Shown in pieces: positions 1 through 57,934 of a stretch of 64,000 bases of DNA. Under the pieces are notes generated by a model. That model made no database searches, was not told the origin of the DNA, and saw nothing but the letters and a program-made list of their open reading frames with translations. The position numbers and the translations under genes are program-made. The DNA lies in IMG/VR virus record IMGVR_UViG_3300044644_000679, positions 1 to 64,000 of that record; one strand, 5' to 3'. Position 1 is the first letter of the stretch; every line of letters starts with the position of its first letter. Source of the stretch: a virus.

Positions 1-710
1 GTTAAGCTTGGAGTTCTTGTCTCAATATCAAATAGTTTTGCCTCAGATATCAATTCATAAACTTCTTGATGAGGGTCTTGCTTTTCATTCGCGTAGAACA
101 GGTAAGACAAAAAGAATTCCTTGGTGTTATGAGCCTTAAAGTATGCACTCCAATAAGAACATACAGCATATGAAACACTGTGGGATTTATTAAATGCGTA
201 TCTTGATGATTTCTCAATCCATCCGAAAATTTCTTCTGCGTTCTCCTTACTTACAATTCCAACACGCTCTGCCCCCGCTATGAATGATTTTTTGACTTCA
301 TTCATGAGGTCAGCCTTTTTCTTTCCAATGGCCTTACGAAGAACGTCTGCCTCTTGTAAATTGAAACCAGCGATTTTCTCTGCTATACGCATAGACTGCT
401 CTTGATATACAAGAACTCCATATGTTGGCTTTAGAATCTCTTCAAGTGCTGGATGAAGATATGTTACTTCTTCTCTACCGTGCTTACGGTCTACATAATG
501 CTGGGTCATGCTTTTCCCATCAACAATTGCTTTCAAAGTTCCCGGCCTAATGATAGCAATTAGTGCTGATAGTTCTTCAATATTATTTGGTGCAACTTTT
601 TTAGACCATGATTTTCCAAGGTTACTTTCTAATTGAAAGATTCCCTTAGTCTTGCCTTCTGCGAACAGTTGCCAAGTTGTTTTATCATTATAGTCTAAAT
701 TATTTAACAT
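1..710 (-). CDS. dnaE: DNA polymerase III alpha subunit, C-terminal half (partial, runs off the window)
   Basis: This is the second half of a split Pol III-type replicative polymerase, the DNA-synthesising subunit. The reading frame opens with ATG at 710 and stays open to base 1, so about 236 residues are visible and the end lies outside. Residues near 25-60 match the DnaE segment after the third catalytic aspartate (GIFQLES, then AIIRPGTL). Further on come YGVLVYQEQSM and RYAFNKSHSVSYA, both classic alpha-subunit motifs. The start overlaps the exonuclease stop by 11 bp, suggesting translational coupling. The beta-clamp and OB-fold regions would lie outside the window. The family assignment is secure; that the two halves assemble into one enzyme is inferred. 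Confidence 0.93.
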   Translation of the reverse strand, partial: MLNNLDYNDKTTWQLFAEGKTKGIFQLESNLGKSWSKKVAPNNIEELSALIAIIRPGTLKAIVDGKSMTQHYVDRKHGREEVTYLHPALEEILKPTYGVLVYQEQSMRIAEKIAGFNLQEADVLRKAIGKKKADLMNEVKKSFIAGAERVGIVSKENAEEIFGWIEKSSRYAFNKSHSVSYAVCSYWSAYFKAHNTKEFFLSYLFYANEKQDPHQEVYELISEAKLFDIETRTPSL

Positions 711-1380
711 ACAAATTTCCGTCAGCAAAAGCCTTATCAAAGTTCATGTTTTGGTATACCGCACGATGAGTTTTCATAAGCTTAATAAATATATTTGCTT
801 CATCTTTAACGTCCTGTAGAGCATCGTGAGCATTGTCAAAACTTAAGCCCATTCTCTCACGCAAAGAATCCATGCTTATAGATCTAACACTGGGATCGCT
901 TTCAGTCCAAGCAAATACACTATCCATGATATCTATCTTATAGACTCTACTGAATAGTTTTTGCTGCTCTCTCTCTTTGTCCCAAGGTCCAAAATCTCTA
1001 CATAGTCTGTTTATTATGTGCATATCGAAGCCAATTATATTAAAACCAACAGGGATAGGATTAAAAAATGGTTCACCCTTCCAGTTGTATTGATCAACAA
1101 ATTTTGTAAATTTATTCCATACGGACTTTAAGGATGGTGCTAATTCTAATTGCTCCCTTGTCTTCTTTGTTATCTTTAGAGCTTCATCTTGTATGGGGTC
1201 AAATCCAGCCGCTATAGCTTTTTCATCATCAAAAATAGGCTTAATTTCACTGTTGAATTGCCCCTTCATCTGCAATGTTCTTCCATCTAAGGCAATAGCG
1301 GCGATTTGTGTTGGTTGAGTACGATGTGGATTGCGTGATCCTGTTTCAAAATCAAATATAATATAGTCTCTATTAGCCAT
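700..1380 (-). CDS. DEDDh 3'-5' exonuclease (DnaQ/epsilon-like) inserted between the polymerase halves
   Basis: A 226-residue proofreading-type exonuclease. The DEDDh residues are visible: D10 and E12 in FDFET, D119 in GFDMH, and H185 and D190 in AHDALQD. In cells the epsilon subunit binds the PHP domain of alpha and removes misincorporated nucleotides. The gene sits exactly between the two dnaE halves, overlapping the upstream stop by 8 bp and the downstream start by 11 bp, with a good ribosome site (AGGAG) inside the end of dnaE-N. It therefore looks like the middle cistron of one polymerase operon. Exonuclease chemistry is well supported. The role as dedicated proofreader of the split polymerase is inferred from position. 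Confidence 0.9.
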   Translation of the reverse strand: MANRDYIIFDFETGSRNPHRTQPTQIAAIALDGRTLQMKGQFNSEIKPIFDDEKAIAAGFDPIQDEALKITKKTREQLELAPSLKSVWNKFTKFVDQYNWKGEPFFNPIPVGFNIIGFDMHIINRLCRDFGPWDKEREQQKLFSRVYKIDIMDSVFAWTESDPSVRSISMDSLRERMGLSFDNAHDALQDVKDEANIFIKLMKTHRAVYQNMNFDKAFADGNLYVK

Positions 1381-2998
1381 TAGATACTCCTGTTAGTTCT
1401 TCAATCTTCATAATTTTATCTAGCAAATTGATTCCTAGAACGTCAAACTTTACGTGGCCCAGTGCCTCTAAGTCTGCCATTTCAAGTCCAGCCACCTTTT
1501 CTGACGAGCCTTTTTGTTTTACCATTGGGCATACCTTTTGAAGTGGCTCTGCTGAAATTACCACACCGGCAGCGTGTTTGCCTTGAGTTTTAAATGTTCC
1601 CTCTATCTGAATAGCTTGTTCAAAATATTCAGCATACTCTCCCTCAAGTTTTCCATCTTCTGATATTCTACAGAAATCTCTTAGATCCTCAGAGTTATTA
1701 ATCAAAGCCCACTTAATAATAGATCGATCTTCATCATCCATTTCTGCTAATTGATCTGAGATTCTTGCTTCGTCTGGTATACAGTTACTTATAGCATTCA
1801 TTTCAGAGAATGAGCAAGCCTCATTAACACGTAAAACTTCCTTAATAGCACTCTTTCCTTGAAGTCTTCCAAACGTTAACATTTGGCTAACTCGACTATT
1901 CCCATACTTATCTTTTAGATATGCAATAATTTCATCACGCTTAGTACCGGGAACGTCTATATCAATATCTGGTAGAGATATATGATCAGCACTGTTTCTT
2001 CCAGCGTTATAAAATCGTGCAAATAGAAGGTCAAACTCTATTGGGTCAATCTTCGTTATGCCAATTAAATATGAGATTAAACATCCTGCGGCAGATCCTC
2101 TACCGGGACCAGATAGCCAACCCATATCATTAACGTGCTTTATAATATCACGAACAATAAGAAAATATCCGAATAGATTAGCATCTTTAATAACATCAAA
2201 CTCTTCCTTGAATCTACTCAAATACTTCTGCTTATCTTCTTCGTTTGATACCTTGTTTTGATCTATTAATATTTTCTTCCAGCCAATACGACATAGTTCC
2301 TTGAGATAATCTTCTTCTGATGCCCCTTTTGGACATTCAAATTTAGGCAACATTGGCTTGCTGAGAATATCGTAGTCTTCACACTGGTCATAAATCTCTT
2401 TTAGTTTAGATGAGTCTAAGCCCTTAGATTCGTCTTTGTCTTTAACGTAGAAAGAGTCTTGCATAAAATATACCAATTTATCCATATGCTCTTGGGGATA
2501 TTTTGAGTCTACATTTATACCACCGCTGTTGTCTGGCCTAATGCATTTCTTTATTTTTGGTAGCGTAGTCTTCATATCAGAACATAATAATATTCTGTGA
2601 AGTTTGGCATCTTCCCTATTTGTATAATAACTAATAGGCATTGATTCAGTAGGAGCATTATAGACACTAATCAAATTTTTACTGATATTTGTGTTGTCAT
2701 ATTGCTCTGGTAATTTACCATTTTCATCTAGTGATGAAACCATCTCAATTAACTCGTACCACCCATCTTTATTCTTAGCAAAAAGTGTAGCAAAATCAAA
2801 TGAGCATCCAATGATGGGCTTTATACCCTGTTTTTTGCAGGCTTTATAAAAAGCAACTGCACCAGATAATGTTTTATAATCACAAATACCACATGCTGGA
2901 TATCCATTATACTTACATTTTTTAGCCAATTCTTCTGGCTTTGAATAACCTTTGAGCAAACTGTAATGGGTATAATTCTTCAACGGGAACCAGTTCAT
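1373..2998 (-). CDS. dnaE: DNA polymerase III alpha subunit, N-terminal half
   Basis: The first 541 residues of a DnaE-type polymerase, carrying the PHP region and most of the catalytic palm. Visible motifs are GPGRGSAAG (about 297-305), PDIDIDVPG with the two metal-binding aspartates (346, 348), and KFDVLG with the third (519). The protein stops about 22 residues after that third aspartate, and homology resumes in the gene starting at 710. The PHP region at 1-70 is degenerate: the usual HSDxS start reads YTHYS and the usual TDH reads CDY, so metal-dependent PHP activity is doubtful. A sigma70-like promoter lies just upstream. The split site differs from that of the cyanobacterial split-intein DnaE, and no intein motifs are seen. 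Confidence 0.93.
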   Translation of the reverse strand: MNWFPLKNYTHYSLLKGYSKPEELAKKCKYNGYPACGICDYKTLSGAVAFYKACKKQGIKPIIGCSFDFATLFAKNKDGWYELIEMVSSLDENGKLPEQYDNTNISKNLISVYNAPTESMPISYYTNREDAKLHRILLCSDMKTTLPKIKKCIRPDNSGGINVDSKYPQEHMDKLVYFMQDSFYVKDKDESKGLDSSKLKEIYDQCEDYDILSKPMLPKFECPKGASEEDYLKELCRIGWKKILIDQNKVSNEEDKQKYLSRFKEEFDVIKDANLFGYFLIVRDIIKHVNDMGWLSGPGRGSAAGCLISYLIGITKIDPIEFDLLFARFYNAGRNSADHISLPDIDIDVPGTKRDEIIAYLKDKYGNSRVSQMLTFGRLQGKSAIKEVLRVNEACSFSEMNAISNCIPDEARISDQLAEMDDEDRSIIKWALINNSEDLRDFCRISEDGKLEGEYAEYFEQAIQIEGTFKTQGKHAAGVVISAEPLQKVCPMVKQKGSSEKVAGLEMADLEALGHVKFDVLGINLLDKIMKIEELTGVSNG

Positions 2999-3034
2999 AT
3001 ATTTCCTTATTCAAAATCAAGAGATCAACAACTT

Positions 3035-3063
3035 ATTATACCGCCTTGGGGGCCATAAGTCAA
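3035..3063 (-). promoter_or_regulatory. sigma70-like promoter for the split dnaE operon
   Basis: On the minus strand: TTGACT, 17 bp, TATAAT, ending about 35 bp before the dnaE-N start. The spacer contains a G/C-rich inverted repeat (GGGGG ... CCCCC, about 3042-3073) overlapping the -35 region, which might also work as a hairpin at the end of the upstream unit. Confidence 0.75.
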
Positions 3064-3086
3064 TATGACCCCCATTCAAAATTTAA

Positions 3087-4073
3087 TTACCAACTCTTAC
3101 ACGCCCAATATCGACTTTTCCACTTTGGACCCGGATTATCACAATTGTGTCTAGCTCTGAAACTCTTACGTCTTTCTGGAATGTTTTTCTTAATTGTCAT
3201 ATTTGGATCGCCAAATCTAACAATAACAACATTTCCACTCTCATTTTTGACGTATACTGCAAACTTTTTAGGACCATTAGAAGTTCTAAATGGTTTATTA
3301 AGAGTAACTTTTCTTCCTTGGTACTCGCTGCCTTCACCCATATACATTAAGACTCTGCCATCTTTTTCGTAATAGCCTTTGCGTCTGTATGTATAAACTT
3401 CTCCAGTTTTTGTATCTTGATATTCATATGAACCTTCTGTTTCTTCTTCATCGTCGCCGGTATATTCATCTTCGTATTTCCCCGGTTCATAGTATTTAAC
3501 GAAATCATATACATTTTGTATATAGATTTCTGCTTTGGAAATCATATCCTTAGTCCAATCTTGGAATTCTACTGACAACTGCATAACTTTTAATTTTGTG
3601 ACTATTTCCATAAGCTGATCGTGCATTTTTTGTATTTGCTCAAGAGCCATTTCATCACCACCATCAGATTGAGCTTTTTTCCAAGCTTCTGGATCTGGAC
3701 GATCTTTGTCGCCCCTTTTTGCTGGCTTGTAGTTTTTACCTTCACGTTCTTTTTTCTTACGTATATTTTCCCATAAGCCGGGTTTTTCTGCTGCAATATC
3801 ATACTCTTCTACTTCTTCGCCAAAGTCTTCATACTCTGCTTGAGTTGGGATATAAAAATTTTCTTCTGTGATTTCTTCTTCGTATCCATAATTTTCCATT
3901 TGCAATTTAAAATCAGCCGCTTCTACGCACCCACAATCTGCGGTAGCTTGACCAATACAAATTGCCACTCTTTGAGAATTATCTGGATATTCTTTTTTCA
4001 TAACTTCGCTACCCATGCATCGTGCTACGAACTTATCTTTGTCTTCATCTTTATTTCTTTTAGGAAGTGGCAT
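3087..4073 (-). CDS. Conserved phage protein, possibly capsid-associated
   Basis: A 328-residue, very acidic, hydrophilic protein. Its C-terminal 60 residues carry a recognisable module: FGDPNM, then ERRKSFRARHNC, then PGPKWKSRYWAC. From memory this module recurs in proteins of marine T4-like phages and giant viruses, often near head genes. The N-terminal CMGSEVMKKEYPD...RVAIC segment is a second small cysteine-containing module. The start at 4073 is preferred over 4085 because GGAGACAATT precedes it at proper spacing. The enzymatic role is unknown. A structural or maturation role is only a guess. Confidence 0.6.
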   Translation of the reverse strand: MPLPKRNKDEDKDKFVARCMGSEVMKKEYPDNSQRVAICIGQATADCGCVEAADFKLQMENYGYEEEITEENFYIPTQAEYEDFGEEVEEYDIAAEKPGLWENIRKKKEREGKNYKPAKRGDKDRPDPEAWKKAQSDGGDEMALEQIQKMHDQLMEIVTKLKVMQLSVEFQDWTKDMISKAEIYIQNVYDFVKYYEPGKYEDEYTGDDEEETEGSYEYQDTKTGEVYTYRRKGYYEKDGRVLMYMGEGSEYQGRKVTLNKPFRTSNGPKKFAVYVKNESGNVVIVRFGDPNMTIKKNIPERRKSFRARHNCDNPGPKWKSRYWACKSW

Positions 4074-4932
4074 AATTGTCTCCAAGTATTAGTTTTTTAG
4101 CGTCGTTAAAAATGTTATCTAAGCTTTCTCTGGGTATTCTATTTCTAAAATAGTTGTAAGCACCCAACACCATTATGTCATTTGGATCTTTAGTTATTTC
4201 TAGCCATCCAACGAAATAATTCCAAACCCTGTCCTCTAAGACTAGTCTATATTTAACACCTTCTGGTCTACCAAATCTATGTAACCATCCTAGTTGTGGT
4301 AAGCATATTGCCCGTCCACCATTTCTTCTAAATTTTTCGTGTATATATCCTTCTTCTCCACCAAATCCTTTGAAGTGCTTATTAAAGCCTAGCCAGTTTT
4401 TTGTCTCGCATGAAAAAAGTCCAAGCCCCATCATTGGTATATCAAAAGGTTCTCCCTTTTCGTAAGCTTCTGTATTTGTCCCCCATGTTCCAAACATATC
4501 TCCACGCCAAGCGGGATCAAATTGAGTTGAATAACTAACTTGATCGTCATATATCATTGGTCCTTGTATTATATCTTTGCAGTCTGGATTACTTTCATAG
4601 TATTTTAATAGCGATTCTATTGCACCGGGCTTGATTAAAACGTGGCAGTCAATAGATATTGCATATTTACCAGACGAGTTAGAAAATATTTCATTTCTTA
4701 CTGCTGTACTAGCCTTTTCTTCATATGGTATATATTTTACGTGATTTCTAAGCCACCCAGATACGTCTTTAACAGCCTGCCCGTGCTTTCCTGTTGGATT
4801 ATTGTCTATAATTATTATCTCATAGTCAATATTTTTTAGTATCTCTTGGTACATTACTAACGATTGAGTGGTAAAATACACTCCATCAAAATCGTCATAT
4901 GTAGCCATTCCTATTGTAAGTAATTTACTCAT
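4060..4932 (-). CDS. Glycosyltransferase, family 2-like (GT-A fold)
   Basis: A 290-residue sugar transferase expected to use nucleotide-sugar donors in the cytoplasm. It opens with TIGMATYDDFDGVYFTTQSL, typical of the GT2 nucleotide-binding strand. EIIIIDNNPTG follows, then a DCH triplet (SIDCHV) standing where the metal-binding DxD normally lies. The middle GFGGEEGYIHEKFRRNGG is the acceptor-side motif of GT2/GT27 proteins. The start at 4932 follows AAAAGGAAAT, and the gene overlaps the next by 14 bp. The acceptor could be virion protein, modified DNA or a host glycan; nothing in the sequence decides. It is one of three glycosyltransferase-like genes in the window. Confidence 0.8.
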   Translation of the reverse strand: MSKLLTIGMATYDDFDGVYFTTQSLVMYQEILKNIDYEIIIIDNNPTGKHGQAVKDVSGWLRNHVKYIPYEEKASTAVRNEIFSNSSGKYAISIDCHVLIKPGAIESLLKYYESNPDCKDIIQGPMIYDDQVSYSTQFDPAWRGDMFGTWGTNTEAYEKGEPFDIPMMGLGLFSCETKNWLGFNKHFKGFGGEEGYIHEKFRRNGGRAICLPQLGWLHRFGRPEGVKYRLVLEDRVWNYFVGWLEITKDPNDIMVLGAYNYFRNRIPRESLDNIFNDAKKLILGDNYATS

Positions 4933-5966: not shown

Positions 5967-6650
5967 TTATTGTTCCTTTGTTATTAATTTGCATAGCTCT
6001 ATAAATCTCTCTTGACTTAATTCCCACTTCATTTTATTTATATCTTTGTGTAACCACTGGATATTGTCTGTCGTATACCCTAGATCACTGTTTATTCTGT
6101 CTAATGATGCGGTTTGTACTGTTGGTTTTTCTCCAAACTTTGGGAATTGTAATTCTAATCCAGACAAAGAACATTTTCTATTTTGCATTTTAAATTGTTG
6201 CCATAGATCATCAACAGTAATTTGAAAATTAATCTTTCTTTTTTTCGCTCCATGCTTTAATGAATAAAAATACCTTGCTGGTATAGTGTGATGTTTTCTA
6301 TTATTTTCTATTGCTATTTGGAATTTTGAACTTTTAGTGTGTTCTCTCTCTGTAATTCCATGTTTTTCTAGAGCCTTTTTTACTATAGCTTTTCTTTGAA
6401 ATCCTGCAAGTATAGCTACGTCTTTTAGACTTAAATTTTGTTTGATATAATACTCTTCAAGGAATTCTTTGGTCAATATTTTAGAACTATCTTTTAAGTT
6501 AGATCTATACAGGCCATATTTTTTTATATATTGACTTATTGAATTATGAGAATTGATATTGAATTCTTTAGCTATTTGGTTAATGCTCTTTCTTTGTTTA
6601 ATATAATGCTCTTCAAGAAATTCTTTGGTTAAAAGATCTTTTGGTTTCAT
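5967..6650 (-). CDS. HNH endonuclease with two N-terminal helix-turn-helix repeats
   Basis: A 227-residue putative homing endonuclease. Two repeated segments begin LTKEFLEEHYIKQ (about 4-40) and LTKEFLEEYYIKQ (about 58-95), each reading like a DNA-binding HTH. The C-terminal part (CSLSGLEL, TASLDRINSDLGY, NIQWLHKDIN) is a phage HNH-type nuclease domain. The start at 6650 follows AAGGAGC at ideal spacing; an upstream in-frame start at 6716 has none. It sits between the dNMP kinase and PD-(D/E)XK genes and has its own GTGTATACA promoter-like motif, as expected of a mobile gene. Confidence 0.85.
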   Translation of the reverse strand: MKPKDLLTKEFLEEHYIKQRKSINQIAKEFNINSHNSISQYIKKYGLYRSNLKDSSKILTKEFLEEYYIKQNLSLKDVAILAGFQRKAIVKKALEKHGITEREHTKSSKFQIAIENNRKHHTIPARYFYSLKHGAKKRKINFQITVDDLWQQFKMQNRKCSLSGLELQFPKFGEKPTVQTASLDRINSDLGYTTDNIQWLHKDINKMKWELSQERFIELCKLITKEQ

Positions 6651-6680
6651 ATTATGCTCCTTAGTGAAGGACTTTAGTAC

Positions 6681-6697
6681 ATAATATGTATACACAT
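6681..6697 (-). promoter_or_regulatory. GTGTATA-type promoter motif before the HNH gene
   Basis: Minus strand reads ATGTGTATACATATTATG in the short gap after the dNMP kinase gene, about 45 bp before the HNH start. It matches the motif found before other isolated genes in the window. Confidence 0.5.
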
Positions 6698-6703
6698 AAA
6701 ATA

Positions 6704-7444
6704 CTAATTTCTCCAAAAGGTATTATTCTTGAGTTCGTCACATAGAACTTCTAGTGTCATATTATGATTATCAATTACTGTATCAAAATTGTGCCAATCA
6801 AATCTGTCGCTATCTAATGATGATTCTGATTCAGAATCACTATTGAACATGTTCCTAGTTAATCTTATAACTATTCCGCCATTGTCCTTGATAGCCTTGA
6901 CTTCGTTTGGGAATCTAACATCTGGAACAATAGCCAACTGAGAATCTTCATTTAGTATTTTGTTTATTGTTGCGTGTACCCAAGCATCTGACTTAACCCG
7001 TCTTATTATTTTAGTTCCAAAGTATTCTAAAAACTCTCTATGAGTCATATTTCCAGTTTTATTTGTTGGGGTTGGCATTTCTTCCCATAGAAATGGGGTA
7101 TGTTCATTCTTTTGATCGTCAGTGCCATATACATTCTTAGAATTGAGTCCAAATAAATTAACTGACATGTCTTTCAAGTAATCTGCGAAATGGTACACCT
7201 TGACATAAGGCCACAATTCTTTTTCTGCATACTCAATAAAAATTGAGTCTTTTCTAGTAACATCAAATATTCCATATCCACTTGTTCCAGTTATATCCTG
7301 AGTATTTATTAGTAGGTTGCCATCGTCGCTGATAGCAAAATCATTAATCATAGACCTTTCTTTCAGCACTTGGCCATTAATATAATTCGCTACTGTGTTT
7401 TTACCAGACTGTTTTCTACCAGAAATCCCAATAATTTTAACCAT
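6704..7444 (-). CDS. Deoxynucleoside monophosphate kinase (T4 gp1-like)
   Basis: A 246-residue P-loop kinase that phosphorylates dNMPs to dNDPs for phage DNA synthesis. The Walker A motif GRKQSGKNT is at residues 9-17. Other family features are HFADYLKDM, the REFLEYFGTKIIRR segment and VPDVRFPNEV. The length suits T4-type dNMP kinases (about 240). It overlaps the primase stop by 8 bp and works alongside dUTPase, ThyX, dCMP deaminase and ribonucleotide reductase encoded elsewhere in this window. Confidence 0.87.
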   Translation of the reverse strand: MVKIIGISGRKQSGKNTVANYINGQVLKERSMINDFAISDDGNLLINTQDITGTSGYGIFDVTRKDSIFIEYAEKELWPYVKVYHFADYLKDMSVNLFGLNSKNVYGTDDQKNEHTPFLWEEMPTPTNKTGNMTHREFLEYFGTKIIRRVKSDAWVHATINKILNEDSQLAIVPDVRFPNEVKAIKDNGGIVIRLTRNMFNSDSESESSLDSDRFDWHNFDTVIDNHNMTLEVLCDELKNNTFWRN

Positions 7445-45057: not shown

Positions 45058-45144
45058 CGGAAGAAGTAGGATTCGAACCCACGGAAGTTTTTACGCTTCT
45101 TCTGATTAGTAATCAGATGCATTAGTCCACTCTGCCATTCTTCC
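45058..45144 (-). tRNA. tRNA-Ser, anticodon ACT
   Basis: An 87-nt class II tRNA. The acceptor GGAAGAA pairs fully with TTCTTCC, the discriminator is G (serine-like), and the long variable arm GAAG...CTTC is present. The anticodon loop TTACTAA gives ACT, which reads AGU; bacterial serine tRNAs for AGY normally have GCT. CCA is not encoded. The predicted transcription start of the promoter upstream falls at or next to its 5' end. Confidence 0.88.
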
Positions 45145-45149
45145 TACTA

Positions 45150-45178
45150 ATTGTATCTCTATTAGTTGCTATTGTCAA
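45150..45178 (-). promoter_or_regulatory. sigma70-like promoter of the tRNA-Ser gene
   Basis: TTGACA, 17 bp, TACAAT on the minus strand, placed exactly between the tmRNA 3' end and the tRNA 5' end. Confidence 0.82.
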
Positions 45179-45179
45179 G

Positions 45180-45527
45180 TGGAGGCGGCGAGAATCGAAC
45201 TCGCGTCCAGAATAATTTCAATATAAACATCTACATCCTTAGTTAGTTGTTCTCGCACAGCTAACAAAGCTAACAGAATTATCTGTGTCAGATTGAATAC
45301 AATCATTACCCCCATTTATGTTTGGTGAGGATACCATATCCGATTATCGGAGTCAGCATGATTGGGCAATACGGTTCATGCCACCGCACTCTTGCCTAAC
45401 TAGGTCAGGCAGCGAGAGCGAAACGAGTTTCGCCAACTAACATTTTAATCGACTTTTATACTGGCCGGTCGATTAACCAGTGGATGCCATCTATATATCC
45501 GTTTACCTGTCGATACCTTTCGCCCCC
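45180..45527 (-). ncRNA. ssrA: tmRNA (transfer-messenger RNA)
   Basis: A 348-nt tmRNA. The 5' end GGGGGCGAAAGGTATCGACA and the 3' TTCGATTCTCGCCGCCTCCA close a tRNA-like acceptor of 7 bp with the alanine determinant G3-U70; only the A73 is encoded, not CCA. The tag reading frame, after TTAGTT, reads GETRFALAA then TGA (45405-45434), a standard degradation tag ending in LAA. It rescues stalled ribosomes and tags the unfinished proteins. Its 5' base touches the stop codon of the thioredoxin-like gene, so it must be processed from a shared transcript or have a promoter inside that gene. Confidence 0.95.
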
Positions 45528-57328: not shown

Positions 57329-57934
57329 ATGTATAATAAAGTTTGTTCAGTTTGTCAAGTAGAAAAGTCTGTTGATCATTTTGAAAAAAGAAATCATAAA
57401 CCAACATATAGATGCAAAGTATGTGCGTCTCAATACCATAAAAATTATTATATTAAAAATGCAGATAAATTAAAGAATAAAACTTTAGAATTTCGTAATA
57501 ATAATCCAGAGTATATGAAAAATTGGAGAAAAAATAATGCTGAAAAAGTGACAAATCAAAAAATAAATTGGTGTCGTAAAAATAAGTATAAAATAAACGA
57601 AAATGAACGTAATAGACGTAAAAATGATATTGAATATAAAATTAAAAAAAATTTACGTAGAAGAGTCAACCAAACAATAACTAGAGACTGCAAAAGTTCT
57701 AGTACATTAGAACTGTTAGGATGTTCTACATATGATTTTTTAAAATATATGGAATCTAAATTTATAGATGGTATGAACTGGGATAATTATGGACAATGGC
57801 ACATAGATCATATAAAACCATGTTCTAGTTTTGATCTAACAAATCTAGAACAACAAAAATTATGTTTTCATTATTCTAACTTGCAGCCATTGTGGGCCAA
57901 GGATAATATTAGTAAGTCTGACAAAATTATCTAG
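57329..57934 (+). CDS. HNH endonuclease inserted upstream of UVDE
   Basis: A 201-residue basic protein. CSVCQVEKS and CKVCASQYH form an N-terminal zinc finger, and WHIDHIKPCSSFDLTN with NLQPLWAKDN is the phage HNH core. AGGAG precedes the ATG. Lysine/asparagine-rich and very AT-rich, as expected of a mobile gene. Confidence 0.88.
   Translation: MYNKVCSVCQVEKSVDHFEKRNHKPTYRCKVCASQYHKNYYIKNADKLKNKTLEFRNNNPEYMKNWRKNNAEKVTNQKINWCRKNKYKINENERNRRKNDIEYKIKKNLRRRVNQTITRDCKSSSTLELLGCSTYDFLKYMESKFIDGMNWDNYGQWHIDHIKPCSSFDLTNLEQQKLCFHYSNLQPLWAKDNISKSDKII

Follow-up and report, generated by a model that had tools for sequence, protein, structure and literature searches.

In the window analysed here, which is bases 1 to 64,000 of the 95,491-base virus record IMGVR_UViG_3300044644_000679, DnaE, the alpha subunit of family C DNA polymerase, is divided between two genes, and a complete gene for a DEDDh 3′-5′ exonuclease lies at the break. 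That DnaE is split with this exonuclease at the break, and that the arrangement is conserved, is near certain. Replicative polymerases are usually single catalytic chains. From the sequences, we consider it probable (roughly 80%) that in this case the two halves, called N and C below, dock without splicing to give a functional two-chain polymerase, with the exonuclease, called X, as its proofreader. In a whole lineage of metagenomic phages, the catalytic aspartates and the fingers have stayed on separate chains, and the proofreader gene has stayed fixed at the break. The DNA-copying enzyme of a large family of uncultivated bacterial viruses is probably assembled from pieces without splicing.

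We infer docking, activity, co-translation and the partnership with X as steps of the following model. Three genes would give rise to one replicase made of three chains. In the window, the chains would probably be translated one after the other from a single mRNA by way of overlapping stop and start codons. N (PHP, palm and thumb, with the catalytic aspartates) and C (fingers, helical region and OB fold) would each fold independently and associate non-covalently across the palm-fingers hinge. This would restore the alpha subunit, to which X would bind as 3′-5′ proofreader. The features of the locus are as follows.

1373..2998, minus strand: DnaE-N, the PHP, palm and thumb half of family C DNA polymerase alpha; 541 residues; Pfam PHP and DNA_pol3_alpha; PDIDID at residues 343-348 and KFD at residues 517-519
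700..1380, minus strand: X, DEDDh 3′-5′ exonuclease, epsilon/DnaQ-like; 226 residues; RNase_T; D10, E12, D119, H185, D190
1..710, minus strand: DnaE-C, fingers (DNA_pol3_finger); first 236 residues of about 523, the gene being truncated by the contig end
1373..1380, minus strand: 8-nucleotide (nt) overlap of the N stop (TAA, 1373-1375) with the X start (ATG, 1378-1380), read from the sequence
700..710, minus strand: 11-nt overlap of the X stop with the C start (ATG, 708-710), read from the sequence
1387..1391, minus strand: AGGAG, resembling a Shine-Dalgarno sequence, 6 nt ahead of the X ATG and within the final N codons; read from the sequence

A preliminary description of this DNA had placed the break just after the third catalytic aspartate, and DnaE-N indeed ends 22 residues beyond the D of KFD. 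The complete exonuclease gene that it reported at the break is likewise there, with an RNase_T domain that scores 54.9 bits against PF00929 (cut-off 24). An alternative in-frame start for DnaE-C is a TTG at 738-740. On a second contig (L003), all three proteins are identical to those of the window over the comparable length, and DnaE-C is complete at 523 residues. Two further claims stood only in part. Overlapping codons are present at both junctions of the window, but they are not a general trait: since both junctions overlap in just 16 of the 198 distinct loci described below, double overlaps of the window's type are a minority feature. Similarly, the three cistrons hold as the core of an operon, but a gene at 3087-4085 lies upstream of DnaE-N on the same strand, and many relatives have extra genes at one or both junctions.

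Gene order among relatives

The preliminary description had proposed a search for the same gene order in phage genomes, and we found it in viral and phage sequences many times over. A scan with N gave 75 loci, none of which contradicted the order N, X, C on one strand; those without X or C end before or soon after that point. Later scans used alignments of N, of C, and of distant members of C and X, and were joined by phage outgroups and by a scan of bacterial genomes with X, which added two contigs from metagenome-assembled genomes. Of the 361 loci gathered, 327 carry three separate genes arranged N, X, C; they amount to 198 distinct loci, where distinct means differing in the final 200 residues of X; the presence of X in all 198 follows from this selection. 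Four of the five scans behind these counts took the best 80 matches each, with distant relatives under-sampled and many contigs recurring. As 198 distinct loci share the same order, assembly error or chance is excluded as the cause of the split.

The remaining loci of the set comprise ten that are fused at this site, 23 that could not be classified (cut short or too divergent) and the window's own locus (L001), which was misclassed since the script considered the plus strand alone. All ten fused loci were fetched from the phages collection as outgroups, and three of them (L078, L079 and L200) are broken at other sites. Outgroups apart, there was no fused member among the fetched relatives. As a control, five unsplit phage DnaE proteins were aligned and scanned against the same collection. 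The 80 best of 340 confirmed stretches were kept, and DnaE was fused in all 80 of these loci; their fetched flanks, of at most 4.5 kb, contained no X-like gene.

In two trees the split loci form one clade that needs a single change of state, with a Shimodaira-Hasegawa-like approximate likelihood ratio test (SH-aLRT) value of 100. The first tree holds 91 split and seven fused rows. The second has 21 split rows and 43 fused ones, of which 36 come from the 80 control loci and seven do not; both lack bootstrap and drew program warnings on long branches and composition. The clade is diverse: among 173 of the 198 loci, namely those that are complete with N in one piece (L168, which lacks PDIDID, was excluded), pairwise identity falls as low as 35% in N and in C, and 27% in X. 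A scan with L174, which diverges most, recovered its own contig alone. In 50,697 phage records there was no match to N, X or C at 60% identity or more; among the matches listed, identity peaked at 33% (N), 36% (C) and 27% (X), and X matched seven records. On these comparisons, the split is conserved across a whole phage lineage that has no close relative among the 50,697 records. Separately, an N-X-C locus (L198, 4364-8588) lies on a contig of 152,655 bases that had been assigned to the bin of a SAR202 bacterium; this contig may belong to a phage.

Position of the break and the question of splicing

We predicted single-chain structures of N and C with AlphaFold2 (predicted local distance difference test, pLDDT, 84; predicted template modelling scores 0.82 and 0.70) and compared them with solved structures, the partners of which include 5fku, 2hnh and 7pu7. 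By this comparison the break falls at residues 584|585 of E. coli alpha. The N model aligns to residues 4-584 or 4-585 of E. coli alpha chains (Z 22.6-25.1, root-mean-square deviation, rmsd, 3.6-4.8 over 486-488 residues), and the C model to residues 585-1073 of E. coli alpha in 5fku (Z 20.0, rmsd 9.4 over 448). The two models cover residues 8-614 and 613-1099 of the M. tuberculosis protein, the latter in 7pu7 (Z 19.0, rmsd 4.7 over 448), and residues 5-644/645 and 644-1121 of the Thermus protein. An alignment of both halves with full DnaE proteins had been suggested as a check, and the halves prove complementary: as modelled, N and C cover complementary parts of the same proteins, which shows nothing to be missing at the break. 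N ends at what we take to be the palm-fingers boundary, and beyond the fingers the DnaE-C of L003 aligns as far as E. coli residue 1073, its final part being an OB fold. Thus PHP, an aspartate-bearing palm, thumb, fingers and OB fold are all present (from Pfam and NCBIfam matches, motifs and models), as in a DnaE, and a single polypeptide is what is lacking, with separate frames in 198 distinct loci.

Cyanobacterial DnaE is encoded in two genes with a split intein. The present dnaE is also in two genes, but at another site and without an intein at the break. The cyanobacterial split site, Y|CFNKSH, corresponds to the FNKSH motif. This motif lies inside C, and all 173 loci compared have its F, N, S and H, so the break differs from the cyanobacterial one, as had been claimed. 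The absence of intein ends held as well: NCBIfam intein models at E ≤ 0.1 gave no match in the N and X of the window or in the C of L003. Furthermore, N ends 13-30 residues past KFDxL in 175 of the 198 distinct loci (the pattern is unmatched in the other 23), the usual Int-N half is longer than this, and DnaE-C opens with ordinary DnaE sequence. An intein at the N|X|C break was rejected on the absence of model matches and the short N tails.

Split inteins do appear to occur elsewhere in the same gene. In L069 (5992-7966), L070 (3950-6720; L071 has the same frames) and L167 (2763-5105), DnaE-N is broken at GPGRG|SAAG, near residue 300. The first piece runs on with Cys (GPGRG|C...Int-N), and the second starts with a stretch that ends in HN before the Ser (Int-C...HN|SAAG). 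L167 scores 25.5 bits against TIGR01445 (intein_Nterm), above the curated cut-off of 24.5, and the first pieces of L069 and L070 have weak, sub-threshold intein/Hint matches. In L070, a 291-residue open reading frame (ORF) stands between the intein halves, with a DUF7487 match just at the cut-off and a sub-threshold match to a TnsA-like endonuclease. In 2009 Dassa et al. reportedly described fractured genes that combine split inteins with a free-standing endonuclease; the break of L070 at residue 300 resembles these, unlike the N|X|C break and unlike the window. From their sequences, the breaks at GPGRG|SAAG read as split inteins, and the phages that bear them should build their polymerase from three pieces, with one joint spliced and one unspliced. 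That both situations are met in the same gene is the strongest reason we have for placing the N|X|C break in a different category, and the phages with a split intein elsewhere in dnaE provide an internal control.

These inteins could nevertheless be taken to suggest that N and C are also joined covalently into full-length alpha, by a short or degenerate split intein that we did not recognise or by some other ligation. We regard this as very improbable, given the short N tails, the ordinary start of C and the absence of any model match at the break in the same searches that flagged, if weakly, the first pieces of L069 and L070.

One continuous polypeptide could alternatively arise by frameshifting, by ribosome bypass or by RNA splicing that removes the X stretch. 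Junction overlaps of a few bases, as in the window and in 16 of 198 loci, would suit such a mechanism. However, C stands in frame 0, 1 or 2 with respect to N, depending on the locus, and the N-X gap exceeds 120 nt in 123 of 198 loci and the X-C gap in 73 (the latter gaps are upper estimates that depend on a C start codon chosen by us). Furthermore, at the junction no Rfam family matched at the gathering score in ten relatives, and the two matches in window positions 1-3100 are at chance level. Frameshifting or bypass was rejected on the variable C frame and the large gaps, and an RNA family or intron at the break on the Rfam results, so that we give this alternative the slightest of chances.

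Signs of function and the role of the exonuclease

By its sequence, the split polymerase looks functional. In all 173 complete loci, the aspartates of PDIDID, the K and D of KFD, G.GRGS, LRK..GKK, FN.SH and the five DEDDh residues of X are invariant; the P of GPGRGS is present in 170 loci, the last K of GKKK in 150 and the K of FNKSH in 165. N, X and C are under purifying selection, with nonsynonymous differences (pN) of 0.05-0.13 and synonymous differences (pS) of 0.66-0.86 in 12 gene comparisons with four relatives. Their evolutionary distances correlate with each other at 0.90-0.92; the largest permuted value was 0.073.

A downstream full-length dnaE would have told against the proposal. 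We therefore searched the whole 95,491-base record and 15 related records, and found a single family C palm (PF07733) in each of the 16, in two pieces in one of them. The fingers (PF17657) also match once per record, with the match crossing one or two stops in two records. Six further records from deep branches have one palm match each (14 records were scanned, of which eight were repeats). Matches to family A (PolA) and family B (PolB) polymerases are absent from all 16 records, all of which are incomplete contigs.

Several observations weigh against a functional two-chain polymerase. The complex of N and C and its activity are deduced from single-chain models and from sequence, and these models are approximate (pLDDT 84, with some C alignments at an rmsd of about 9). 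X has one weak match among solved structures in the PDB, and its binding to N or C is an assumption. Residues 1074-1160 of E. coli alpha, which include its tau-binding last domain, are not covered by the C model, and the beta clamp (PF02767) matches none of the 16 records; both points bear on how the enzyme would become processive. All searched records are linear contigs, none rated 90% complete, so that the lack of another polymerase is short of proven. Finally, three loci (L072, L084 and L168) have broken-looking DnaE-N frames.

The missing clamp, the incomplete contigs and the three broken-looking frames would fit the possibility that the split polymerase is a remnant or an accessory enzyme, while replication is carried out by the host replicase or by a polymerase encoded outside the contigs. 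We consider this unlikely, because the catalytic motifs are intact in 173 loci under strong purifying selection and PolA and PolB are missing from the 16 records. Window genes for a DnaB-like helicase, a primase and a UvsX-like recombinase speak against it too; the window further encodes a ribonucleotide reductase and a PhoH-like protein.

As to the three irregular loci themselves, each could be a sequence error or a real break. L072 has an insert and a change of frame before PDIDMD (6990-7360), L084 an in-frame stop at about 6010, and L168 lacks the PDIDID stretch (4380-4560).

In the proposed three-chain replicase, X is likely the proofreader of the split polymerase. The PHP domain bears on this role. 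Where N is long (at least 570 residues; 76 of the 173 loci), the PHP motifs are mostly kept: DH (pattern [TSVC]DH) in 74 loci, GxE in 74 and HxHxxYS in 56. Where N is short, as in the window (97 of 173), the corresponding numbers are two, three and zero. One study counts PHP domains that depart from the motif as inactive, and states that an inactive PHP is complemented by DnaQ (PMC12926913). Because PHP is shortened and without metal-site motifs in the branch of the window, X is probably the only proofreader in that sub-lineage. One could go further and suppose that X bridges the palm and fingers chains as an obligate assembly factor, without which the active site of the polymerase would come apart, so that no polymerisation would occur without a bound proofreader; this we hold to be a doubtful extension.

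X-like genes are also found in two other settings. Chryseobacterium phage MA9V-3 has an X-like exonuclease (25%) whose scanned neighbours are a helicase and an RNase H-like protein. In the Bacteroides phage DAC19 and its kin, an X-like gene lies about 15 kb from DnaE, which in DAC19 is one frame of 1276 residues.

Origin of the split and known systems

The split looks to have happened once, in the ancestor of a large phage lineage, at a linker that is not conserved; X would have been placed there and retained since. Sequences at the junctions might indicate how this came about. In the X|C gap there is a family of 33 ORFs, one member of which (in L010) matches PF02945 (Endonuclease_7). In the N|X gap, a family of six ORFs is read as HNH-like; similar ORFs of L007 and L035 have no Pfam match. 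The same gap holds two families of small ORFs, with 53 and 27 members, of which two scanned members (59 and 76 residues) have no Pfam match; these two and the family of 33 are the largest in the gaps. Single ORFs elsewhere match FkbM-type methyltransferases, a uracil-DNA glycosylase and, weakly, a glycosyltransferase. The small N|X ORFs, for example those at 6819-6998 in L358 and 7907-8137 in L061, are possible extra replicase subunits.

A free-standing homing endonuclease may thus have broken dnaE near KFD, with X later replacing or joining it, a scenario that is compatible with the three-chain model. Such an origin is plausible because homing endonucleases target polymerase genes and split genes and, in T4-like phages, have been credited with the splitting of nrdA and possibly of gp43 (PMC2988022). 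The Endonuclease_7-type and HNH-like families at the junctions point the same way. The break in the window itself has no endonuclease gene, such ORFs being present at N|X or X|C in some of the 198 loci. However, a 249-residue ORF in the replication cluster of the window (5967-6716) is a relative of the N|X insert of L007 (34% over 156 residues, E 1e-24); window positions 57329-57934 have no similarity to the X|C endonuclease of L010. On the other hand, endonuclease-type families are missing from the break in most deep branches. There the N|X gap mostly holds the small ORFs of the 53- and 27-member families, while the Endonuclease_7-type family turns up here and there in derived branches, the pattern that late arrivals at an existing break would leave. 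We therefore put this origin forward tentatively, at somewhat less than even odds.

The exonuclease of gp43, a family B polymerase, lies inside gp43 itself. The T4-like Aeromonas phages 25 and 44RR nevertheless offer a parallel, in that their replicative polymerase is also encoded in two genes, gp43A and gp43B. In phage 25, gp43A and gp43B co-purify and are active as a polymerase, with a seg endonuclease associated, and the split NrdA of phage Aeh1 is functional (PMC2988022). Split phage enzymes can therefore reassemble and work. The present polymerase differs from gp43A/gp43B in belonging to family C and in having a separate exonuclease gene fixed at the break throughout the lineage.

Group 2.2 jumbo phages are closer in that the family C catalytic subunit also consists of two proteins. 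Their minimal Pol III alpha is split between distant genes and occurs beside a family B polymerase (PMC7824862). In contrast, the halves described here span E. coli alpha residues 4-1073, their genes adjoin with X between, and the (incomplete) records have neither PolB nor PolA. The passages available from these two sources (PMC2988022, PMC7824862) mention no proofreader gene at the break. PolC and DnaE1-DnaQ fusions (PMC12926913) tie the polymerase to a DEDDh proofreader in one chain, compared with three chains here.

DnaE is also encoded in two genes in Cellulophaga phage phi13:1 and Bacillus phage Jayan (L078, 3677-7277; L079, 3932-7390). There the break comes just before PDIDID, at profile positions of about 325-334, with no exonuclease at the break of either phage, and by sequence it is apparently a separate fission site. 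We found no description of a DnaE split with an exonuclease between its halves in the open-licence literature, including the portions available of PMC2993671 and PMC3322345. Within these sources, split phage replicases are thus known already, and the proofreader gene fixed at the DnaE break throughout a lineage is new.

The lineage makes two questions directly testable: can the active site of a family C polymerase be put together by a pair of chains, and does having the genes in the order N, exonuclease, C steer polymerase and proofreader into one assembly? The break is also a natural place at which to split DnaE where a controllable form is wanted.

With regard to other features, the T4-type capsid (PF07068) matched none of 14 records, a result that carries no weight because the control likewise had no match anywhere. 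The window carries a phage-borne tmRNA gene at 45058-45527, with the tag GETRFALAA, which adjoins a tRNA-Ser gene.

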